Shown piece after piece: positions 1-10,752 of a stretch of DNA of 64,000 nucleotides (its first letter is position 1; every line of letters begins with the position of its first letter). Source of the DNA: Pirellulales bacterium (lineage in GTDB: Bacteria > Planctomycetota > Planctomycetia > Pirellulales > Lacipirellulaceae). Location of the stretch: positions 1 through 64,000 of the forward strand of contig JANQOF010000067.1 of NCBI GenBank assembly GCA_028279215.1, written 5' to 3'. The translations under genes and the position numbers were made by a program. The notes below the pieces were generated by a model that worked only from the letters and a program-made list of their open reading frames with translations, did no database searches and was not told the origin of the DNA.

Positions 1-19
1 ACTTCTTGCCTCGTGCCAT
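1..19 (-). CDS. 5' end of a gene leaving the window (unknown)
   Basis: On the minus strand an ATG at 19-17 is preceded by an AAGGAGG Shine-Dalgarno sequence (33-27) with 7-nt spacing, which is unusually good for this window. Only six codons are visible (MARGKK) before the edge. The basic N-terminus does not identify a family, so no function is proposed. The case rests on the ribosome binding site alone. Confidence 0.45.
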
Positions 20-105
20 CCTATCGCCTCCTTAAAGTTGCGTCCTGACGCCACGATTATTCATCACGGCACGGACTCGTTTAAGGGGGCTAGGTCACTG
101 CCTAG

Positions 106-405
106 CTCTACCACTATAGTAGCCGAACATTTACTGCCGGGGATACGTGGCAATGGGCAACGCCTACGAAGCTGGTTGATACCAACTGGTACGATGGCAA
201 CAGCGATGGAATTGACGATTACCCTGATAGCTGTTTGGACTTCGTATTCTTGACTGGGCTAGATGATGAGTGGGGCGTAACAAGCGAAGTTATCGTTAGG
301 TCGGGAGACTTTCCCGACGACAAGACAACTAGCGACCATAGGCCGGTTCTTGTTACTGTCTCGTTCGATGCAAATGACGATAAATCAGAATTATTTGGAA
401 AATGA
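106..405 (+). pseudogene. C-terminal remnant of an endonuclease/exonuclease/phosphatase (EEP) family protein
   Basis: Frame 1 is open from 106 to the TGA at 403-405. From about residue 12 it reads like the end of a DNase I-like EEP domain: DTWQWATPTKLVDTNW, DDYPDSCLDFVF, and the signature SDHRPVLVTV, whose Asp-His pair is catalytic in the family. A stop at 103-105 closes the frame and no ATG lies in it. No continuation of the domain (usually about 250 residues or more) is visible upstream in any frame. The gene is therefore 5'-truncated, probably by a rearrangement near position 100. A hairpin sits at the break point. Family assignment is by motif only. Confidence 0.6.
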
Positions 406-410
406 CAAAA

Positions 411-434
411 AAGCCAGCAATGTCTTACTGGCTG
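411..434 (+). terminator. Stem-loop after the EEP remnant
   Basis: AGCCAG and CTGGCT form a 6-bp stem around a short loop a few bases after the stop at 405. It follows a run of six A. A T-run on the plus strand is absent, so it resembles a terminator only weakly in this direction; the A-run would serve as a T-run on the minus strand. Confidence 0.35.
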
Positions 435-636
435 AAGGCGAATACTGGTGCACGGCACAACGCGAGTTGTAGGAACCTCGGCAAAACCAAACGCGGAAGG
501 GCTTGTTCAGCCGACGAAGGGAAGCCCTGCGGTATCTGTGGTGGGTAGAGCTACAAGGATCACCATAAGTGGCAATCAACAAAAAAGAAGAGTAGCACAC
601 TTTCCTATACTTCCAAATAGCGAGGAAAAAGTGGAG

Positions 637-1710
637 ATGCCAATTCTCGATCTCGCTGACGCCAAGACAATTAGCCTGTCGGCTTTCAGTCTGGGCGTGA
701 TACTGGATTTCTTTTTGCTCAACTACCGAGATGATATTTGGTTGAGAGGCCGAGAGCTATTTGGAACACTAGATAAAGTACAGTTCAAAAGCCTACATAG
801 ATTGATCGCAAAACGGCTAATCGCTCTGGTGTGGTATTCAGAGTCGTCCGCCCGTAGCGACTTGAGCAGCTTCGTCCTCGTTCTCGCCAGCATCGCTTGG
901 TCATTCACGGGTTTGTTTTTAATCTCGCCCTCTGCTCTCGGCAGCAATACGCTGGCAGACATTCAAAACTTGTATAAAGTGTTTTTGCTCTGTGGTTTCG
1001 CAGGTGCTACGTTGGGCGTTTTTCATATAGCACACGATTGGAGAGTCGCTAAGCAATCACAAGCGTTTAAGGATTGGGTAAACAATAGCCCTGAGTGGGT
1101 ACAGACCTGCTACTATTGGACTTTGGTGCCGTTTTATTGTACGTTTTTTGTGTTCCTTGCAGGCTTGGGTATAGGGGGAATACTGCTGCTGTTTTGGTTT
1201 GGAGTTTATCCCCCTTTTCCTGCCGCTCGTTCGGCGGCGATTCTATTCGTTGTAAACTTAGTTGGTGACTGGGCTTCTTTCCGAGTGACGTACTTTGTGT
1301 TAAAGCGAATAGCTTTCGCCAAGATGTGGTGGGCAATAGCTGGTCCGGTTGTAGACGTGTTAGCAGCCATGTTAATCCGTGTTATAGTCGCGGTTGTGAC
1401 TATGGCGGCTCTTGTTCAGCCCACAACGGCACACGGTGGAAAGCCAACAAGCACTGAATCGGCTGGGTTCATACTGCTTGTTGTGTGGTTGTCGTTAAGT
1501 GTATTCATGCCAACAATCTGCGTCGCTGCAACAATGATTGTTGCATATGTCTACAAGGCGATTTTCATCGGGGTTACATTGATTGCTAAAGCGTTCGTCA
1601 ATCAGGCTATACCACCGGACCACGACACAGTGGTTAGGCCATTCGCCGCATTGGGTGCAATAGCTGCTATAGCAACGTGGGCATTATATGCCTTTCAAGC
1701 CATCATCTGA
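637..1710 (+). CDS. Multi-pass membrane protein, unknown function
   Basis: The frame is open from 448. ATG 637 is chosen because GAGGA at 622-626 stands about 10 nt before it, and because the upstream residues are low complexity and unlike a membrane protein. The product is 357 residues. I count about eight hydrophobic stretches, for example SFVLVLASIAWSFTGLFL, VFLLCGFAGATLGVF, a long one around YCTFFVFLAGLGIGGILLLFWF, and a C-terminal AALGAIAAIATWALYAF. A cytoplasmic-looking basic stretch (about residues 30-60) precedes the first strong membrane segment. No family motif is recognised. The DNA looks more AT-rich than the housekeeping genes to the right. The gene lies between a truncated gene and an integrase/HTH pair, which suggests accessory cargo. 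Confidence 0.6.
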   Translation: MPILDLADAKTISLSAFSLGVILDFFLLNYRDDIWLRGRELFGTLDKVQFKSLHRLIAKRLIALVWYSESSARSDLSSFVLVLASIAWSFTGLFLISPSALGSNTLADIQNLYKVFLLCGFAGATLGVFHIAHDWRVAKQSQAFKDWVNNSPEWVQTCYYWTLVPFYCTFFVFLAGLGIGGILLLFWFGVYPPFPAARSAAILFVVNLVGDWASFRVTYFVLKRIAFAKMWWAIAGPVVDVLAAMLIRVIVAVVTMAALVQPTTAHGGKPTSTESAGFILLVVWLSLSVFMPTICVAATMIVAYVYKAIFIGVTLIAKAFVNQAIPPDHDTVVRPFAALGAIAAIATWALYAFQAII

Positions 1711-1969
1711 CATCATATCACCAGCAACAAAGTCAGTTGCGTTCAGAAAGTTTTCCTACACCGAAACATTGACTGCATGATCCTTCACTCTGCTAGTAGC
1801 TGTCCCATCGAGAAGTATCGAGTTTACGTGCCTGAGCGGCCTTCTGAACGGACTCAGCCCAAGGTTTGCCGTACATTGGCTCGATTTCGGCCCAAATGAA
1901 CACTCTATGAAGTGTTTTCCGAAAGAAATCTCGCCCCGGCCTGATTCCGCCCGTAACCTATACTTGTGC
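1711..1969. other. Intergenic, no gene seen
   Basis: A 259-base gap before the HTH gene. It holds a 6-bp stem-loop (AACACT...AGTGTT) near 1900-1917 and no convincing promoter or coding frame. Confidence 0.4.
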
Positions 1970-2452
1970 ATGAACTATGCACAATTCAAAAAGTGGCTCG
2001 AATCGAAACGCAAGGAACTAGCCCACTTCGCGTCCTATTACGAAGACTACACAATCAAAAACTACAGAGCCGCAACCATAGCAACCGAGGCATCCCAGCA
2101 CGCTGCAAATCTTCACCTACACGAACTCATGCGAGTGTGGGGCGAGCAAGCCGAAGTCTCTGAGGTTGATCGGTATCTAGTGGAATGCTTGGGTGCGATT
2201 CCAGAGCCGGAATCGGACACTCTCACTCCGCCAGAAATCGCCGGGCAACTTTCAGTGTCTAATGATACTGTCTTGGCTTGGATTCGTAACGGCGAACTCA
2301 AGGCATCCAACATCGCAGCGAGGACAAGCACTCGCCCGAAATGGATCGTAAGGAAAGCCGAGCTTGATACCTTCCTCAAGAATCGGCAGCCAGAAACCAA
2401 TGGTAAGCGGTCGACCAAGATTGAGTCATCATTCAAGCGTTATTCGACCTAG
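1970..2452 (+). CDS. Small HTH (excisionase-like) DNA-binding protein
   Basis: ATG 1970 is preferred over 1907 because the product then starts at MNYAQFKKWLES; the 21 upstream residues look non-coding. The protein has 160 residues. The first 80 or so are helical and charged. From about residue 85 (LTPPEIAGQLSVS, then TVLAWIRNGELKA) comes a winged helix-turn-helix of the MerR/excisionase (HTH_17) type, where a helix is followed by a W-x-R-x-G-x-L wing. Such proteins direct recombination or regulate mobile elements. The gene converges on the neighbouring integrase and the two overlap by 24 bp at their 3' ends, so it is probably that element's excisionase or regulator. Confidence 0.65.
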   Translation: MNYAQFKKWLESKRKELAHFASYYEDYTIKNYRAATIATEASQHAANLHLHELMRVWGEQAEVSEVDRYLVECLGAIPEPESDTLTPPEIAGQLSVSNDTVLAWIRNGELKASNIAARTSTRPKWIVRKAELDTFLKNRQPETNGKRSTKIESSFKRYST

Positions 2453-3511
2453 ATACCACTCGCGTACAAAGTTGCTGAACTTGAGCAACTGTTGGTCGAA
2501 TATCTTCTGTCGATAGATGCTCGCCATATCGTGCCGAGCGTGGCCAATGGCGTGGTCGATAACAGCCTGATTAACATCGGCACCCGTGGCAACGGTCTCT
2601 AGGGTTCGCTTGAGGCTGTAAAAGCCTTGGTTGTCAACGTCACATTTCTTGCACAGTTTGTCGAACTCACGGGCGACAACCCACCTATCCCACTCTCGAC
2701 CATTGAATACTAGCGGCTTGCAGACGACGGCCTTGATTGCCTTGGTTGTTTCTTTCCATAGTGGGCAACGCCGGTCAACTTGCGTCTTGGTTCTCCAGTA
2801 ATCATGCCAGCCATTTTTCAGGTCAACTTGCTTGGCTGGCAAGGTACAACAGTCTTTTGGGCCGAATCCACAATTGATACCAAGTAGGATCATGGCCTTC
2901 ATTTCAGGATCGGCGGCTTTGACCAACTTGCGAATCTGTTTGGCCTTGTAGAACTGTTCACCCCGCAAGCGTTCGTATTCTCGAATCTTGGTCTTTGGTG
3001 GTGCTTCTAACTTCCGTTTGAATTGCAATGCGAAACCATATTCCTCATTGGCCATTGCGAACACCATGCGGGCAATCTGCAAACGTTTCTTGAGTGTTGC
3101 TGGTCGATATGCTTTACCATCCTTATCCTTGCCCAATGCAACACGTAACCGACCAAAATCACCTGGAGTGAGTGAGTCTAGTGGGCGAGTCGTGCTAACA
3201 GCAGCCGCGATTGCATCAGTTGTTATTTGATATTCGTAATAGGAATGATGACTGATTTCGCCAGCTTCATATCGCTGCAATTTCTCACCAAGGAAGGTAT
3301 CCAGTAGGTTGCCAAGGGTGGCAACTTGACTTGGTGGAACCTGTCCAGCGTATAGATAGTCTCTCTGTTCGTTGTACTTGTTTAGTGCGGCTTGCCAGTC
3401 ATCCCATACGCCGAAATAATGCACCTTCCCCCGGATTTTCTTAGACCATTGGCCATTACCGTTGGCCGTCAACGGGAATTCGGGATACGGTTTGTTGGGT
3501 TTTGAAGGCAT
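2429..3511 (-). CDS. Tyrosine-type site-specific integrase, planctomycete subfamily
   Basis: 360 residues. The N-terminal 45 residues resemble an arm-binding/AP2-like domain (GNGQWSKKIRGKVHYFGVW). A SAM-like core-binding domain spans about 60-170, and the catalytic domain about 190-350. The C-terminal half shows FYSLKRTLETV (box II, Arg retained, usual His replaced), IGHARHDM and the presumed nucleophile in SIYRQKI. The box I Arg, normally in a GLR-x-x-E context, is replaced here by CGFGPKDCCTL. In my recollection that substitution is shared by many planctomycete integrases, so the subfamily rather than this copy may be divergent. The start lies 108 bp upstream of tRNA-Leu, the usual position for an integrase near its target. 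The 3' end overlaps the HTH gene. Confidence 0.8.
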   Translation of the reverse strand: MPSKPNKPYPEFPLTANGNGQWSKKIRGKVHYFGVWDDWQAALNKYNEQRDYLYAGQVPPSQVATLGNLLDTFLGEKLQRYEAGEISHHSYYEYQITTDAIAAAVSTTRPLDSLTPGDFGRLRVALGKDKDGKAYRPATLKKRLQIARMVFAMANEEYGFALQFKRKLEAPPKTKIREYERLRGEQFYKAKQIRKLVKAADPEMKAMILLGINCGFGPKDCCTLPAKQVDLKNGWHDYWRTKTQVDRRCPLWKETTKAIKAVVCKPLVFNGREWDRWVVAREFDKLCKKCDVDNQGFYSLKRTLETVATGADVNQAVIDHAIGHARHDMASIYRQKIFDQQLLKFSNFVREWYLGRITLE

Positions 3512-3581
3512 AGGAAAGTCTACCTCACGCAGTCGGGTATCGTCGCGGGTATCGTCTTCCTGACGCCTTCACTATGTTAGA

Positions 3582-3610
3582 TTGACAAACCCCTATAAAT
3601 CAAGGATAAA
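3582..3610 (+). promoter_or_regulatory. Sigma-70-type promoter of tRNA-Leu
   Basis: TTGACA (3582-3587), 17-bp spacer, GATAAA (3605-3610). The predicted start of transcription lies within a few bases of the tRNA 5' end at 3619. The -35 box is a perfect consensus match. Confidence 0.6.
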
Positions 3611-3618
3611 ACGCACAT

Positions 3619-3704
3619 GGCCGAGTGGCGGAATTGGCAGACGCTCTGGACTTAAAATCCAGTGTCCCGTGAGGGACGTGCGGGTTCGAGTCCCGCCTCG
3701 GCTA
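3619..3704 (+). tRNA. tRNA-Leu (anticodon TAA)
   Basis: An 86-nt class II tRNA. The acceptor pairs GGCCGAG with CTCGGCT (a G-U closes position 1) and the discriminator is A at 3704. The anticodon stem CTGGA/TCCAG holds loop CTTAAAA, giving anticodon TAA for UUA codons. A long variable arm (GTGTCCCGTGAGGGAC) is typical of tRNA-Leu. The T arm contains GGGTTCGAGTCCC. CCA is not encoded. Its 3' half is the integration target of the element to the right, and an integrase gene lies on each side. Confidence 0.95.
3659..3704 (+). repeat. Attachment-site repeat, left copy (tRNA-Leu 3' end)
   Basis: The last 46 nt of the tRNA recur at 6764-6809 with 41 of 46 positions identical by eye. The two copies bracket the decayed integrase, the GH2 fragment and the sulfatase, as attL and attR do for an element inserted in a tRNA 3' end. 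Confidence 0.8.
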
Positions 3705-3882
3705 CTTGTTATCAAAGGACTTACGTCGACTCCGACTCTGTCCAGATTTGCTCCTGAAAGCCGATTCAGTACACATTCGGTACAGCACGGTATTCAAGCG
3801 GCGCTTGCGTCGATGGTATTCCAGATTGCCTGACGTACTATTCCTATTCTCCCGCCTTGCTGGCGATGGTCGCCAGTGGCAG

Positions 3883-4771
3883 GAGAACCGATCTTGGCAA
3901 GCCTTGAAACAAACCAATAAATCTCGGAATTACTTCATTCGGTTTCGGTACCAAGGACGTAACATCAATCGCTCCCTGGGAACACGCAATCGCCGGCAAG
4001 CGATCGCCAAGAAAGTCCGCATCGAAGAAACGATCTGGCTATTGGAAGAGGGTCGAATCGAAGTGCCAACTGGCGTGATAGCGTATCGATCGTTTATCGC
4101 TGATCCGGTGAATCGGAGAAAGAGAGGCCCTCGTCAAATCGCCACCGTAGAAGGCTATGCTCATCAATACTCACGGCATATCGAAAGTTGGTTGGGTTCT
4201 CGAAAGCTATCCGCGATTCACGCCACGGACATCGATCGTTTTCACTCATCGGTTGGAAAGCACAGTGGTCCCTATGCAGCGAATCGAGCCGTATCCTTGA
4301 TTTCATCCGTTTACAATGACGCGATCCTGAAAGGCTGGCACTGGGAGAATCCAGCCAAGGGCATTCAGCGGTTTCCGGAACCGTCTCGCACCCGGTTCTT
4401 GCAAGAGGATGAAATCGGCCCGTTTATCCGGGCCTGCGAAGCAGCCAGAACTACCCGTTTGCGAACCGTGGCGGAAATAGTGCTGCTGGCCTTGCTATCG
4501 GGTCTGCGGCGGAGGAACGTCTGCCGTGCTCGGTGGGAGCAGATCGATTTTGATCGCCGCGTGTGGAACATCCCGGCTGACGAAATGAAGAACGGCGAGC
4601 CTCACTCGGTCTACCTGTGCGACTATTTGCATCAAATGCTCATGGCTCGATATTGGGATCGCAATTGTTCGGTATGGGTCTTTTCCAGCACCAGGACCGA
4701 AGACCCTCTGATGGAACCGAAAAAGGGCCTCGCTACGATCGTCGAGCGAGCCAAGATCGATACGATATCGC
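3883..4771 (+). pseudogene. Tyrosine integrase, truncated before the catalytic C-terminus
   Basis: Recognisable integrase begins around ENRSWQALKQ and NYFIRFRYQG (arm-binding domain). It continues through a core-binding domain (TVEGYAHQYSRHIESWLG to NDAILKGWHWENPAKG) and the first part of the catalytic domain, with box I Arg in LLSGLRRRNV and the beta-strand Lys in DEMKNGEPH. After IVERAKIDTIS, where box II (H-x-L-R-H) should follow, the frame reads into unrelated sequence; the GH, W/H and Tyr motifs are missing. No convincing start codon is visible, and the upstream residues back to 3706 look non-coding. The product cannot be an active recombinase. It starts just downstream of the tRNA 3' end, the normal place for the integrase of this insertion. 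Confidence 0.8.
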
Positions 4772-5065
4772 CGCAATTGGGGATATGGAGGCTTACCCAA
4801 GAACGAGGGAGAGTACAGGCAGCGCTACCTGACGTCGCTCGATCGACTCAACACCTTACGCCACCAGGGAGTCGCCGGCGGCGTCTACACACAGACTGCG
4901 GATATCGAAGGCGAGATCAACGGACTGATGACCTACGATCGCAAGGTGATGAAGATCCCTACGAAGGAACTCGCCACGCTACACTCGCGGTTGTACGCCC
5001 CGATCGATTCGAGCAATGCTCCCCAGTTTCCAGCATCGGCAATTGTAGAACAAGAGACGAAGTGA
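4772..5065 (+). pseudogene. C-terminal fragment of a GH2 family glycosidase
   Basis: In frame 2, offset from the integrase frame, the sequence reads NWGYGGLPKNEGEYRQRY, then GVAGGVYTQTADIEGEINGL, YDRKVMKIP, and stops at 5063-5065. The pattern VYTQT-D-x-EGEINGL-x-TYDRK is characteristic of the (beta/alpha)8 barrel end of GH2 proteins common in planctomycetes and Bacteroidetes. Only about 97 codons remain, and the catalytic glutamates lie upstream of what is left. The junction with the integrase at about 4770 is abrupt. The fragment implies a polysaccharide-degradation gene stood next to the sulfatase before a deletion. Confidence 0.75.
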
Positions 5066-5270
5066 AAGCCGAGCAAGTTGATGCAGTTGAGGTTGCGACT
5101 TGAGCGAAAACGCCCAGAAAATTGGCGAACAGGGCGAGGCTATCGCACCACTCGAAGTCAAAGATCTCAACAACGTCGAATATCTACCTACGTGCGAAAG
5201 ACCCGACTTACGTGATGCCGGGGTCCGAAGACGTGCAACAATGCAGAAAGAAGCGATCGGCCTGCGAGTT

Positions 5271-6695
5271 ATGGTAAAGATGCAACTGCCCTTGAAGCTA
5301 CTCACCGCGTGTATTGCCGCCCTGCACTTTGCAACCGCTTCGTCTGACGCAAGCGCTGCGGATCGGCCCAACATAGTTGTTGTATTCATTGATGATATGG
5401 GCTGGTCGGATGTCTCCTGTTTCGGTGGACAAGGTCCCAAAACGGAACATATCGGCCAGCTTGCCGCCGAGGGCATCCGATTCACTAACTTCTACGTGAA
5501 CTCGCCCATTTGCTCGCCGTCTCGTGTGGCTCTGACAACCGGCCAGTATCCCCAGCGATGGCGGATTACGTCGTATCTCAACCACCGGAGTAGCAACCAA
5601 GAGCGTGGAATGGCGCAATGGCTCGATCCTGCAGCTCCTGTACTCGCGAGAGAACTACAACATGCGGGCTACGCGACCGGGCATTTTGGCAAGTGGCATA
5701 TGGGCGGTCAGCGCGACGTCGACGATGCGCCGTCGATTGCCGACTACGGTTTCGATCAAAGCTTGACAAACTTCGAAGGCATGGGGCCGAAACTACTTCC
5801 ACTTGCGTTGAAGCCCGAATGGAAAGAGCCTCGCAAAATCTGGGGTGAAGCGATTCGACTAGGAGGTCCATCTGTTTGGATGCTCCGCTCTCAGGTTACT
5901 CAGGGATTCGTGGAATCGGCGGTGTCGTTCATCGACGACTCAACTCGCCGTGGGCGACCGTTCTACATCAATCTTTGGCCCGACGACATGCACGCACCGT
6001 TCTTTCCGCCCGTAGATGAATGGGCTGACAGACCTCGAGGGCGCTACTGGAAAGTACTGGATTCGATGGACGAACAACTCGGCCCATTGTTCGATCGCAT
6101 TCGTAACGACAACAAACTACGCTATAACACCTTGATCATGTTTTGCTCCGACAACGGTCCACAGCCCGGTGCCGGCACGAGTGAGCCACTTCGAGGTGCT
6201 AAGGCCTGGTTGTATGAAGGTGGCGTGCGGTCGCCATTGATCGTGTGGGGGCCCGGGCTAGTGAACGAGAACATGGTCGGGAAGACCAACAGAGAATCGA
6301 CTTTCAGCGCCATTGATCTTAACCGTTCGCTGTATACCATCTGTGACGTTCCGGTGCCCGCAAGCGCGACGCTCGACGGCGAGAACCTATCGAACGCGCT
6401 ACTGGGCAAGGCGCGGCAAAGTCGCGAGGCTCCCATCTTTTGGCGCCGCCCGCCCGATCGTCCCGGCTTCGGACACGGCTTCCAGGAAGACAACCCCGAT
6501 CTTGCCGTACGCGACGGGAAATGGAAGTACTACGTGAACTACGACGGTAGCAATCCTCAACTGTACGACCTCCACGGCGACGAGCCCGAGTCGAACAACG
6601 TGGCCAGCCGATACCCAGGCGTCGTCTACCGACTTCAATCAGCGATCGAGCAGTGGAATTCCGCAATGCCCAAGGATGCAGGGCAATTGAAGTAG
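5271..6695 (+). CDS. Secreted arylsulfatase (formylglycine-dependent sulfatase)
   Basis: ATG 5271 gives a 474-residue protein with a signal peptide (VKMQLPLKLLTACIAALHF...ASA). The frame is open back to 5100, but those residues look non-coding. The fold follows sulfatase order: metal ligands in NIVVVFIDDMGWSD, the activation motif CSPSR with Cys81 to be oxidised to formylglycine, GKWHMGG, then the second metal site in MFCSDNGPQPG with a Lys-containing LRGAKAWLYEGG. The C-terminal subdomain ends in WKYYVNYDG and QLYDLHGDEPES. It hydrolyses sulfate esters, probably on algal or mucin-like glycans, in the periplasm or outside the cell. It is the only intact gene in the tRNA-Leu insertion, so it looks like retained cargo. 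An anaerobic or aerobic maturase must be encoded elsewhere. Confidence 0.92.
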   Translation: MVKMQLPLKLLTACIAALHFATASSDASAADRPNIVVVFIDDMGWSDVSCFGGQGPKTEHIGQLAAEGIRFTNFYVNSPICSPSRVALTTGQYPQRWRITSYLNHRSSNQERGMAQWLDPAAPVLARELQHAGYATGHFGKWHMGGQRDVDDAPSIADYGFDQSLTNFEGMGPKLLPLALKPEWKEPRKIWGEAIRLGGPSVWMLRSQVTQGFVESAVSFIDDSTRRGRPFYINLWPDDMHAPFFPPVDEWADRPRGRYWKVLDSMDEQLGPLFDRIRNDNKLRYNTLIMFCSDNGPQPGAGTSEPLRGAKAWLYEGGVRSPLIVWGPGLVNENMVGKTNRESTFSAIDLNRSLYTICDVPVPASATLDGENLSNALLGKARQSREAPIFWRRPPDRPGFGHGFQEDNPDLAVRDGKWKYYVNYDGSNPQLYDLHGDEPESNNVASRYPGVVYRLQSAIEQWNSAMPKDAGQLK

Positions 6696-6763
6696 GCCCA
6701 CAATTGGCGCAGGCCGACCGAGTCCAAGTGATCGCGGCCCTACAAGAATCGCGCTCCTAATAC

Positions 6764-6809
6764 CCAGTGTGTCGTGAGGGACGTGCGGGTTCGACTCCAG
6801 GCTCGGCTA
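6764..6809 (+). repeat. Attachment-site repeat, right copy (tRNA-Leu 3' fragment)
   Basis: A degenerate duplicate of tRNA-Leu positions 3659-3704, same strand, with mismatches at five sites including the T arm. It lacks the anticodon arm and 5' half, so it is not a tRNA gene. It marks the right end of the insertion. Confidence 0.8.
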
Positions 6810-7473: not shown

Positions 7474-10400
7474 CTACTTGGGTATTGGCTCGCCAGTGAT
7501 GCCTTCGACCCCGGAACTCTGCGCTTTCTCGACGAACTCCTTGACCGTCACCTCGACGAACTTACTAAGGTCGGGCTGAAGGTCTGCGTACATCTGCATT
7601 GCAACCTGCAGAGAGTCTCGGTGCGTTTGAGTGGGACTACTGAATGAAGAATTGAAAGCGCCTGCGCCCATTAGCCTTTGCGAGATCGTCAGCGGCAACT
7701 CCACACCGATACGCCCTGCATCGCTCCAACCGAAAAGGCGACGCTCAAGATCGGAGTAGCTCTTTCGTAGCCTTCGAAGCTCCTGTACTAATTCATAGTG
7801 GGAGTCGTCTGATCTATCTATCGCTTTCTCGACCTCGTCGAGCATCTCCTTGGTGTTCGTAAAGCCATTAGATGCTCTTCTAAACTTCTTTCTGAAGCTT
7901 CGAAGCTGCTCGTAGTAAGCCAGATCTTGTGTCCGGTCGCCCGCCGGCAGGGACGACGTTGCGTAGGAGACGATTCGAAACGGCTTGGGGTTTGCAAGCT
8001 TCGTCGAGTCACCTCCATCAACTCGATCGACCGATACCGAATACTCGCCGGGCAAGACCTGCTGGCCATCCTGGTTCCTCAAGTTCCAAGTCATCTTCGC
8101 CAACCCCTTCGAGTCTTCGGCCGTCAACCGATTGACGACGTTGTCGCTGCTGTCACGGATGGTGAACACTAGCTGAGGCGTTGTTTCGAGTTCTTCTGCC
8201 GCCAGTTCTTCAAGCGTGGGATAAGGAACCTCTTCCTTCGCCTTACGAGCAGCCGACTCGGCTTTCTTGCGTTTCGATTTGGCCGACTTGAAATCGTCGC
8301 GATTGAAGTAGGTCCAAGTGACGCCATACGGCGGGTTGTTGGCGTTGTAAAATCCGCCTCCTTGAAAACCACGCTTGCCACCCAGTGCATCGGTTACCGG
8401 GAACTGTTTGGCATCCTTGATGTCGAACATATGAAAAGCCTTCTCCTTAAATAGCCCGGGCGCCAATTGTCGCAAGGGAGTGTAGTCGTCGAGTACATAG
8501 AAACCTCGCCCGAATGTCGCAATAACTAGATCGTTTTCTCGCCTTTGGATCTCGATGTCGCGCACCGAAATAGTTGGCAGACCATGGGAGAACTTGAACC
8601 ATTCTTGCCCGCCGTCGATCGTCGCGAACACACCATACTCGGCCGCCAGGAAGAGCAGGTCGGGTTGCCCATGATCCTGGATGACTCGCCAGCAGAGGTG
8701 TTTTTCAGGGATACCGGTCGTGATGATCTCCCAGGTTTCGCCGCGATCGGTACTCTTAAGTACATACGGTTTGTAGTCACCGTACTTGTGATTGTCGCAG
8801 CAGACAAAGACCGTATCGGGGTCGTGTCGACATGCCTTGATGTCGTTGACAAATGCCATCTCGGGCAGGCCAGAGATCAAATCGACCTTGCGCCAAGTCG
8901 TACCGCCGTCTTCGGTGATTTGGATGAGTCCATCGTCCGTTCCAACGTAGATCAGTTTTTCGTCCAGAGGCGATTCGCCGATCGAGGTGATATTGTTGTA
9001 TTCGCTCATGGCGTAGTGGTCCCATGAGTCGTCGATGCCCCAATACTGCCCGAGGATGGGCAGTTTCATTCGATTCACGTTGCGGGACAAGTCGGGACTG
9101 ATTGCCGTCCAACTGTCGCCTCGGTCGTTGCTACGATGCAGTTTCTTCGAACCGAAGTAGAGTCGCTTATGATCATGAAAACTGATCTCGATCGGCGAAT
9201 CCCAATTGAATCGCAATTGCGTCTCACCGGCGGCTGGTTGTGGGCGGATGTCGGTTGTCTGCCCGGTCTGTCGATCGAAGCGACGAAGATAGCCCTGCTG
9301 GCTTTCACCATAGATGATGTTAGGGTCTTTGGGATCAATGGCGCAATCATGACCATCGCCGCCAATGATCACCCGCCAGTCGCGGTTGGTGATTCCTTGA
9401 ACGCGATTTGTTGCGGTAGGGCCATACTGTGTGTTGTTGTCCTGAGTTCCACCGACCACATTGTAGAACGGTAACTCGTTGTCGACGGATAGCTTGTAGA
9501 ACTGGGTGAGGGGCAGGTTGGCCGCAAAGCGGTACGTCTTGCATCGATCGTGCGAGACATAGAGGCCTCCGTCGCTACCGACGATCACCATATCTGGATC
9601 GGTAGGGTGGAAGGCGACCGCGTGATTGTCGCCATGCTTGCTACTGCTGCCGACCTCCTCGAATGTCCTGCCTCCATCCGAACTGTATCCAAGCACAACG
9701 TTCGCGTGGTAGATGGAATCAAACCGATGAGGATCGCACCAAATCTCTTGGTAGTAGTGGGGGCCAGTTCCAACGCCCACATAGTCGCTCATTTTCGAAA
9801 AGCTCTGACCGTCGTTGTCGCTGCGAAAGACGCCGCCTTTAGTTTGGGATAGCTCAACGGCAGCGTAGATCACATTTGGCTGCTGTGGCGAGATGGCGAT
9901 GGATATCTTGCCTTTGTCGCCGCTGGGTATTCCATTGCTTAACTCAACCCAAGTCTTGCCGCCGTCATACGACTTGTGGATGCCCGATTCCGGCCCCGCA
10001 GCCATGAAGGCTGCGACCGTGCGATGCTTCTGATAGGTGGCCGCGTAGATGATGTTTGGGTTGTCAGGGTGGAGGACAACGTCGGTTGCGCCTGTGTATT
10101 CTCCGGCGCCAAGAATCTTGCTCCATGTTTTGCCGCCATCGGTGGTTTTGTAGATCCCGCGCTCTCCACCAGGGGTCCATAGCGGTCCCTGACAGGCAAC
10201 ATACACAATGTTCGAATTCTTGGGGTGAACGGCGATTTTCGAGATGTGTTCGCTCTTGTTCAGCCCAAGATTCTCAAACGACCTGCCGGCGTCGTTGCTA
10301 AAGTAGATCCCATCGCCAATTCCAACGTGGCGTCCAGCCACGTTCTCACCCGTGCCAACCCACAGGTTCGCCGAATTGCTTGGGTCGAGCGCGACACAGC

Positions 10401-10752
10401 CGATGGAGTAAGAACCGTAGTTGTCGAAAATGGGCGACCATGTGGTTCCAGCATTCGTTGTTTTCCATACTCCACCCGAACCTGCGGCAACATACCAGAC
10501 GTTCGGATTTTTCGGATCGACAGCAATATCGGCAATTCGACCCGACATTAGTGCCGGTCCAATGCTCCGAAACTTCATTGCCGCAAGCTGTTTCGTTTCA
10601 AGAGAACCTTTCTCATTGGCCGCCTCCGTGTCGTCGCCGTCTTGAAGCGTAGAATCCGCCTGGGCGATGGAACTAGACAAGTGAATTGGCAACTGGCTCC
10701 AGCACAACGCCACCAACAAGAAAACGAAACACAAGTTGCATACTCTAGCCAT
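7474..10752 (-). CDS. Secreted Asp-box (BNR/VPS10-like) beta-propeller protein
   Basis: 1092 residues. A signal peptide is visible (ARVCNLCFVFLLVALCWS). From about residue 55 there are at least nine Asp-box repeats of the form S/T-x-D-x-G-x-T-W, such as TTNAGTTWSPI, KTTDGGKTWSKI, KSYDGGKTWVEL, RSNDRGDSWTAI and ITEDGGTTWRKV. They build two seven-bladed propellers as in sortilin/VPS10 and oligoxyloglucan-hydrolase folds. The last 300 residues include a low-complexity KSAKSRKKAESAARKAKEE segment, an Ig-like section with LPGEYSVSVD, and a helical end. Planctomycetes carry many such proteins, usually named glycosyl hydrolase or exo-sialidase. I see no catalytic acid pair, so function is open. It is probably periplasmic or surface exposed. 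Confidence 0.82.
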   Translation of the reverse strand: MARVCNLCFVFLLVALCWSQLPIHLSSSIAQADSTLQDGDDTEAANEKGSLETKQLAAMKFRSIGPALMSGRIADIAVDPKNPNVWYVAAGSGGVWKTTNAGTTWSPIFDNYGSYSIGCVALDPSNSANLWVGTGENVAGRHVGIGDGIYFSNDAGRSFENLGLNKSEHISKIAVHPKNSNIVYVACQGPLWTPGGERGIYKTTDGGKTWSKILGAGEYTGATDVVLHPDNPNIIYAATYQKHRTVAAFMAAGPESGIHKSYDGGKTWVELSNGIPSGDKGKISIAISPQQPNVIYAAVELSQTKGGVFRSDNDGQSFSKMSDYVGVGTGPHYYQEIWCDPHRFDSIYHANVVLGYSSDGGRTFEEVGSSSKHGDNHAVAFHPTDPDMVIVGSDGGLYVSHDRCKTYRFAANLPLTQFYKLSVDNELPFYNVVGGTQDNNTQYGPTATNRVQGITNRDWRVIIGGDGHDCAIDPKDPNIIYGESQQGYLRRFDRQTGQTTDIRPQPAAGETQLRFNWDSPIEISFHDHKRLYFGSKKLHRSNDRGDSWTAISPDLSRNVNRMKLPILGQYWGIDDSWDHYAMSEYNNITSIGESPLDEKLIYVGTDDGLIQITEDGGTTWRKVDLISGLPEMAFVNDIKACRHDPDTVFVCCDNHKYGDYKPYVLKSTDRGETWEIITTGIPEKHLCWRVIQDHGQPDLLFLAAEYGVFATIDGGQEWFKFSHGLPTISVRDIEIQRRENDLVIATFGRGFYVLDDYTPLRQLAPGLFKEKAFHMFDIKDAKQFPVTDALGGKRGFQGGGFYNANNPPYGVTWTYFNRDDFKSAKSKRKKAESAARKAKEEVPYPTLEELAAEELETTPQLVFTIRDSSDNVVNRLTAEDSKGLAKMTWNLRNQDGQQVLPGEYSVSVDRVDGGDSTKLANPKPFRIVSYATSSLPAGDRTQDLAYYEQLRSFRKKFRRASNGFTNTKEMLDEVEKAIDRSDDSHYELVQELRRLRKSYSDLERRLFGWSDAGRIGVELPLTISQRLMGAGAFNSSFSSPTQTHRDSLQVAMQMYADLQPDLSKFVEVTVKEFVEKAQSSGVEGITGEPIPK

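Follow-up and report, generated by a model that had tools for sequence, protein, structure and literature searches.

Opposite halves of a planctomycete tRNA-Leu(UAA) gene probably supplied by two kinds of integrative element

The sequence analyzed here, referred to as the window, comprises 64,000 nucleotides (bases 1–64000 of contig C5) of a 4.56-Mb assembly in 83 contigs, and the relatives with which it was compared are planctomycetes. The only tRNA gene detected in the window with ARAGORN is tRNA-Leu(UAA), at 3619–3705 on the forward strand. The features on its 5' (left) and 3' (right) sides are as follows.

1–3659, no strand: putative right-hand end of a left, 5'-side integrative element (integrase family and exact 5'-half copies in relatives; GC content)
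448–1710, +: membrane-protein-like ORF in the left element, with no family match
1907–2452, +: helix-turn-helix protein resembling excisionases, encoded at the integrase tail (HTH_17, TIGR01764, phrog_66)
2429–3511, −: intact tyrosine integrase typical of the 5' side, reading away from the tRNA (PF00589; position of the family; model with a lambda-Int-like fold)
3535–3557, +: tandem arm-type repeat GGGTATCGTC GC GGGTATCGTC between integrase and tRNA (pattern match at 3536–3554; same design in seven complete elements)
3582–3610, +: promoter-like TTGACA-17-GATAAA directly before the tRNA (hexamers aligned by eye; not listed in a consensus scan)
3619–3705, +: tRNA-Leu(UAA) (ARAGORN), with 3619–3659 as the half borne by 5'-side elements, the part from about 3648 as the half borne by 3'-side elements, and the anticodon stem–loop as their overlap
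3706–3785, +: putative inner left end of the right element, conserved TATCAAAGGACTTACGTCGA plus tandem repeat TTCAGTACACATTCGGTACAG (comparison with relatives)
3894–4786, +: dead integrase belonging to the right element, with a frameshift behind the homologous start and an end before HxxR...Y; N-terminus and core differ in origin
4787–5065, +: last 92 residues of a GH2 glycoside hydrolase, left as a C-terminal stub (PDB matches 7sf2 and 9j6n; same gene before the G003 sulfatase orthologue)
5280–6695, +: intact secreted sulfatase of 471 amino acids with a CSPSR motif (PF00884; PDB sulfatases; orthologues in the genus)
6741–6752, +: TACAAGAATCGC, the putative inner right end, present unchanged in the G007 element
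6758–6809, +: displaced, degenerate tRNA-Leu 3' part, the putative outer end of the right element (repeat comparison)

The original prediction had noted a 46-bp degenerate repeat of the tRNA 3' end, and this was borne out: 3659–3704 and 6764–6809 agree at 41 of 46 positions, and the match runs to 45/52 when counted from the anticodon loop (from 3653 and 6758, respectively). No other 46-mer on either strand of the window exceeds 26/46, which rules out a chance origin of the repeat. Wide occurrence of the repeat in the genome had been named as evidence against an element, and in the whole 4.56-Mb assembly the tRNA-Leu 3' part has no occurrence beyond this locus except for matches within other tRNA genes. 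The locus has the layout of a tRNA island of the 3' fragment type: a complete tRNA gene (3619–3705) is accompanied at least 2 kb downstream, in the same orientation, by a cognate 3' fragment (6758–6809), and an integrase lies inside the island, with a PF00589 match within 3706–4794 in a broken gene.

The 3.1 kb between the copies had been predicted to be an old, shrunken integrative element in tRNA-Leu, and comparison with relatives supports this reading, specifically that of a dead element on the 3' side. In a genome of the same family (G007), TATCAAAGGACTTACGTCGA and an integrase with a related N-terminus follow tRNA-Leu(UAA). The tRNA 3' part recurs there without mismatch over 58 nt at a distance of 65.6 kb downstream, and the 12 bases in front of it, TACAAGAATCGC, also occur 5 bases ahead of the degenerate 3' copy in the window. 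Directly behind tRNA-Leu(UAA), the sequence reads TTGGTATCAAAGGACTTACGTCGA in G007 and TTGTTATCAAAGGACTTACGTCGA in the window, and the motif GACTTACGTCGA also occurs behind tRNA-Leu(CAA), tRNA-His, and tRNA-Ser, ahead of related integrases; related integrases were found behind other tRNAs as well. The G007 element (65.6 kb; G007:C4:296652–362379) is thus a larger element with the repeat and a related integrase, as had been anticipated. It shares with the window the same tRNA, the inner ends, and a related integrase N-terminus, but differs in its exact copy, its intact integrase, and the absence of any close sulfatase relative from the G007 genome.

The claim that an integrase starts directly behind the tRNA was correct only in part. 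The frame is open from the end of the tRNA, but the start homologous to those of relatives lies at 3894, in a different frame from the rest of the gene, which is frameshifted. This start reads TTGGCAAGCC, compared with ATGGCAAGCC in G007. Identity of the N-terminus to that of the G045 integrase reaches 53%, whereas the core belongs to another integrase type, so that the remnant appears to be chimeric, with an N-terminus resembling the tRNA-Leu integrases of relatives. Rather than the several decayed mobility genes originally described, the segment contains just one integrase remnant, which is followed from about 4787, in another frame, by the C-terminal 92 residues of a GH2 protein. The sulfatase is indeed intact, with an open reading frame and the CSPSR motif. 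Its orthologues in two genomes of the same genus are 73% and 70% identical, and the former, in G003, is located 2.4 Mb from the tRNA-Leu of that genome, again with the GH2 gene in front. Because of this shared gene order, the sulfatase appears to have arrived within a GH2–sulfatase pair, which is best read as cargo that was cut down by the deletion that fused the integrase to the GH2 gene. One intact sulfatase and a GH2 stub are all that is present, and not the several intact carbohydrate-active and transport genes together that characterize a polysaccharide utilization locus. Beside the island, a large secreted BNR/sortilin-like beta-propeller protein is encoded at 7474–10752 (−).

The 3' copy also begins at the anticodon loop in G003, G007, G009, G017, and G055 (in G055, its distance to the tRNA is about 15.7 kb); the stretches fetched from G005, G045, and G048 yielded no 3' half. 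The presence of the segment at the same place in all close relatives, which had been raised as a point against an island, was not observed: none of the same-genus genomes carries the integrase or the sulfatase at tRNA-Leu. The junction of 3704 with 6810 predicted for an empty site was not recovered because no synteny is kept in any relative, and a comparison of the proteins of the window and of contig C36 (see below) with the tRNA-Leu regions of relatives detected no shared flanks. In G003, which is of the same genus, a tRNA-Leu(UAA) 3' copy lies 11.1 kb behind the tRNA (G003:C1:5059471–5070723; 87% to the window tRNA), and none of the integrases listed falls in the stretch between them. Behind tRNA-Leu(CAA) of G017, four more tRNA 3' copies and several integrases extend over 127 kb (G017:C1:4240920–4368200), an apparent array of tandem 3'-side islands.

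On the other side of the tRNA gene, the window contains an intact integrase that the original prediction had not mentioned (2429–3511, −). It is separated from the downstream tRNA-Leu by 107 bp and is of the kind found 5' of tRNA genes, as in islands of the 5' fragment type. The GC content of the putative left element is 47–52%, compared with mostly 53–57% to the right, and the contig starts at position 1, so the other end of the element lies outside the window. Excisionase-like proteins of the same blastp cluster occur in seven other elements of the integrase family. The sequence TTGACAAACCCCTA lies ahead of both tRNAs with 5'-side elements in the source genome (tRNA-Leu and tRNA-Met). The tRNA-Leu gene may be transcribed from this promoter-like sequence of the left element, and the left integrase is presumably active. 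This 5'-side element with its intact integrase is more informative than the 3'-side element.

Relatives of the window integrase were found in 28 of the 43 genomes of the family, and the integrase family (E < 1e-20) in 102 of the 396 genomes of the order. Among the 40 loci with a tRNA within 700 bp, the integrase is 5' of the tRNA and divergent from it in 36, and 3' and codirectional in four. A partly overlapping survey of named public genomes, with records that include Pirellula, Bythopirellula, Rhodopirellula, Blastopirellula, and Gemmata, placed 63 of 67 on the 5' side, with 17 anticodons, and 4 of 67 on the 3' side. In nearly every locus with a nearby tRNA, the integrase lies 86–245 bp 5' of it. 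When the region on the integrase side was fetched, an exact 38–41-nt copy of the tRNA 5' half was present 13.7–59.7 kb upstream in six of seven loci; none was found in the region fetched for the truncated tRNA-Arg case of G003. The 5' copies end at tRNA positions 38–42, and the 3' copies begin at positions 29–35. The source genome itself contains a further example, in which tRNA-Met(CAU) (G000:C16:46576–46650) has a 5'-side integrase 45% identical to that of the window and an exact 5' half (39/39) at G000:C4:70927–70965. The same arm-type repeat occurs at both ends in the six loci and in this tRNA-Met case. Two 5'-side elements, L140 (G006:C85:1–13832) and L132 (G054:C1, 4865–19950), of 13.7 and 15.0 kb, respectively, have a common gene order; the former encodes a primase, terminase, major head protein, and portal, and the latter has a head morphogenesis gene. 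They look like small prophages or capsid-forming satellites.

The integrases of the family have Gly at the Arg I position of XerA and XerD, and Tyr at the His of the HxxR motif. Lys242, Tyr333, R240, R247, and N213 are invariant in the family, and His324 is nearly so, whereas the window integrase and the 3'-side integrase of G055 have Lys301 where most have Arg II; for the window integrase, this counts against the two-element reading proposed below. R240 and R247 are candidates, put forward from sequence conservation, for the residues that replace Arg I. The predicted fold is that of a complete tyrosine recombinase (mean pLDDT 93.6) and matches lambda Int with a Z-score of 16.6 (2.9 Å over 243 residues); the fold comparison retrieved ordinary tyrosine recombinases only and no closer relative. 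The exactness of the attachment-site copies argues that the enzymes of the family do integrate. Comparable active sites have been described: in the CTnDOT integrase, Arg I is replaced by another Arg, and the IntDes integrases, known only from Desulfovibrio and of function not established, combine a shifted Arg I with a His-to-Tyr change (PMC8138268). Like both subgroups, the family lacks the first catalytic Arg at the usual position, and like IntDes, it has Tyr at the first His of RKHRH, a likeness drawn from the published description. Descriptions of IntDes are confined to Desulfovibrio (PMC8138268), whereas the window family comes from planctomycetes.

On a tree of 36 of the family's integrases, at least three changes of the side label are needed. 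The 3'-side tRNA-Leu integrases of G055 and G017 cluster with the 5'-side tRNA-Leu(UAA) integrase of G019 (support 93/80), and because of this grouping, it appears that close relatives can approach one kind of tRNA from the 5' or the 3' side.

A candidate for the old 5' half at the window locus is located on another contig. On contig C36, the tRNA-Leu 5' half is matched at 41/41 positions (C36:4598–4638) with no 3' half next to it, and this is the only tRNA-Leu 5' half in the assembly. C36 is unlinked to the window, and the genes behind its tRNA half seem chromosomal. A group I intron in tRNA-Leu(UAA), the position of which is known from cyanobacteria, was considered as an explanation and rejected, as the match extends beyond the intron position and no 3' half is present on C36. 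The arm repeats are GGTGTAG at C36 and GGTATCG at the window integrase. No far end with matching GGTATCG arms was found elsewhere in the assembly, and other direct or inverted GGTATCG pairs were rejected because their positions read as coding sequence. C36 may represent the far end of the left element seen in the window. However, the arm repeats agree at both ends in all seven complete elements (the six relatives and the tRNA-Met case), and because those of C36 and the window differ, C36 may instead belong to another, older element of the same kind.

The locus and its relatives present repeats of the tRNA gene, two integrases on its opposite sides, and both architectures with exact copies. It is quite likely that tRNA-Leu(UAA) was used as an attachment site by two kinds of element bearing opposite halves of the gene. 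Both kinds would cross over in the anticodon stem–loop. In the proposed history, the insertion order of which is inferred, the right, 3'-side element would have brought a new 3' half and displaced the old one to 6758–6809. Later deletion would have reduced this element to the dead integrase, the GH2 stub, and the intact sulfatase. For its part, the left, 5'-side element would have brought a new promoter and 5' half, leaving the old 5' half upstream, either as the C36 copy or as one lost in an assembly gap. If both insertions happened at tRNA-Leu, the working gene would consist of two element-borne halves; its promoter and 5' half were probably supplied by the left element and its 3' half by the right element, so that both halves probably come from mobile DNA. 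The full reading, to which we assign a probability of roughly 0.65, combines this origin with a lineage in which an integrase family specialized for the 5' side, with a rearranged active site, switched several times to the 3' side through the symmetry of the anticodon stem–loop.

The most serious alternative is that two 5'-side elements were inserted in tandem, with C36 as the far end of an older GGTGTAG element, and the far end of the window integrase's element, together with its 5' half, lying in an assembly gap. The mismatch between the C36 and window arms, where complete elements agree, and the absence of a GGTATCG far end from the assembly favor this possibility, to which we give somewhat less than an even chance; there is nevertheless only one 5' half in the assembly, arm sites may change over time, and a rearrangement could have carried C36 to its present place as a remnant. 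It is improbable that only the right element used tRNA-Leu, with the element of the left integrase merely nearby and the C36 half an unrelated pseudogene. The unlinked position of C36 and its different arms would fit such a history, but the family lies 86–245 bp 5' of a tRNA almost without exception, exact 5' halves accompany it in six of the seven fetched loci, and the pattern is repeated at tRNA-Met in the source genome. Least credible of all, and given hardly any weight here, is an explanation in which 6758–6809 is a decayed duplicate tRNA gene, the sulfatase is a resident chromosomal gene, and the right element never existed. The GH2–sulfatase order is indeed also found in G003 far from tRNA-Leu; however, the copy begins at the anticodon loop as in the five other genomes named above, the G007 element has matching sequences at both inner ends, the tRNA is followed by an integrase remnant, and no remains of a tRNA 5' half were found just before 6758.

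Among the islands compiled with Islander, a 3' fragment is displaced in 3,760 of 3,919 and a 5' fragment in 159 of 3,919 (4%) (PMC4383910). The right element resembles the former in its regenerated tRNA, displaced 3' fragment, integrase behind the tRNA, and anticodon-centered crossover (PMC4383910), and differs in its dead integrase, degenerate fragment, and remaining length of only 3.1 kb. In archaeal pTN3-like integrases, the element bears the 5' half and a new tRNA promoter, as stated for pTN3, whereas bacterial tRNA genes used as integration sites are reviewed as keeping their original promoter, with very few exceptions (PMC8371274). As in the 5'-fragment islands and pTN3, the 5' half would be carried on the left element (PMC4383910, PMC8371274), but here the family is bacterial and order-wide, the 5' side is the rule, and many tRNA types are used; furthermore, the integrase gene is intact and not split by integration as in the pTN3-like integrases. 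The right element is thus an ordinary decayed tRNA island, and the left element is of the known but rare 5'-fragment kind. As far as we searched, and with priority uncertain, the new aspects are an order-wide bacterial family with the 5' side as its rule and the use of one tRNA from both sides; the open literature yielded no pertinent report of islands in planctomycete tRNA genes or of such two-sided use, most subscription papers being outside the search.

The locus suggests that an essential tRNA gene can be replaced piecewise by mobile DNA from both sides. It also provides a biological setting for integrases in which Arg I is displaced and His is replaced by Tyr, and a family in which few lineages are on the 3' side opens the determinants of the element-borne half to comparison and experiment.

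A second, unrelated integrase type also occurs on the 5' side, yet is oriented toward the tRNA, at L048/L049 (G021:C1:3799702–3822857) and L061/L062 (G018:C1:1003470–1021332). The 5' halves that accompany these elements measure 40 and 41 nt and are located 23 and 17.8 kb upstream, respectively, and the G021 element (L048/L049) contains three sulfatases.
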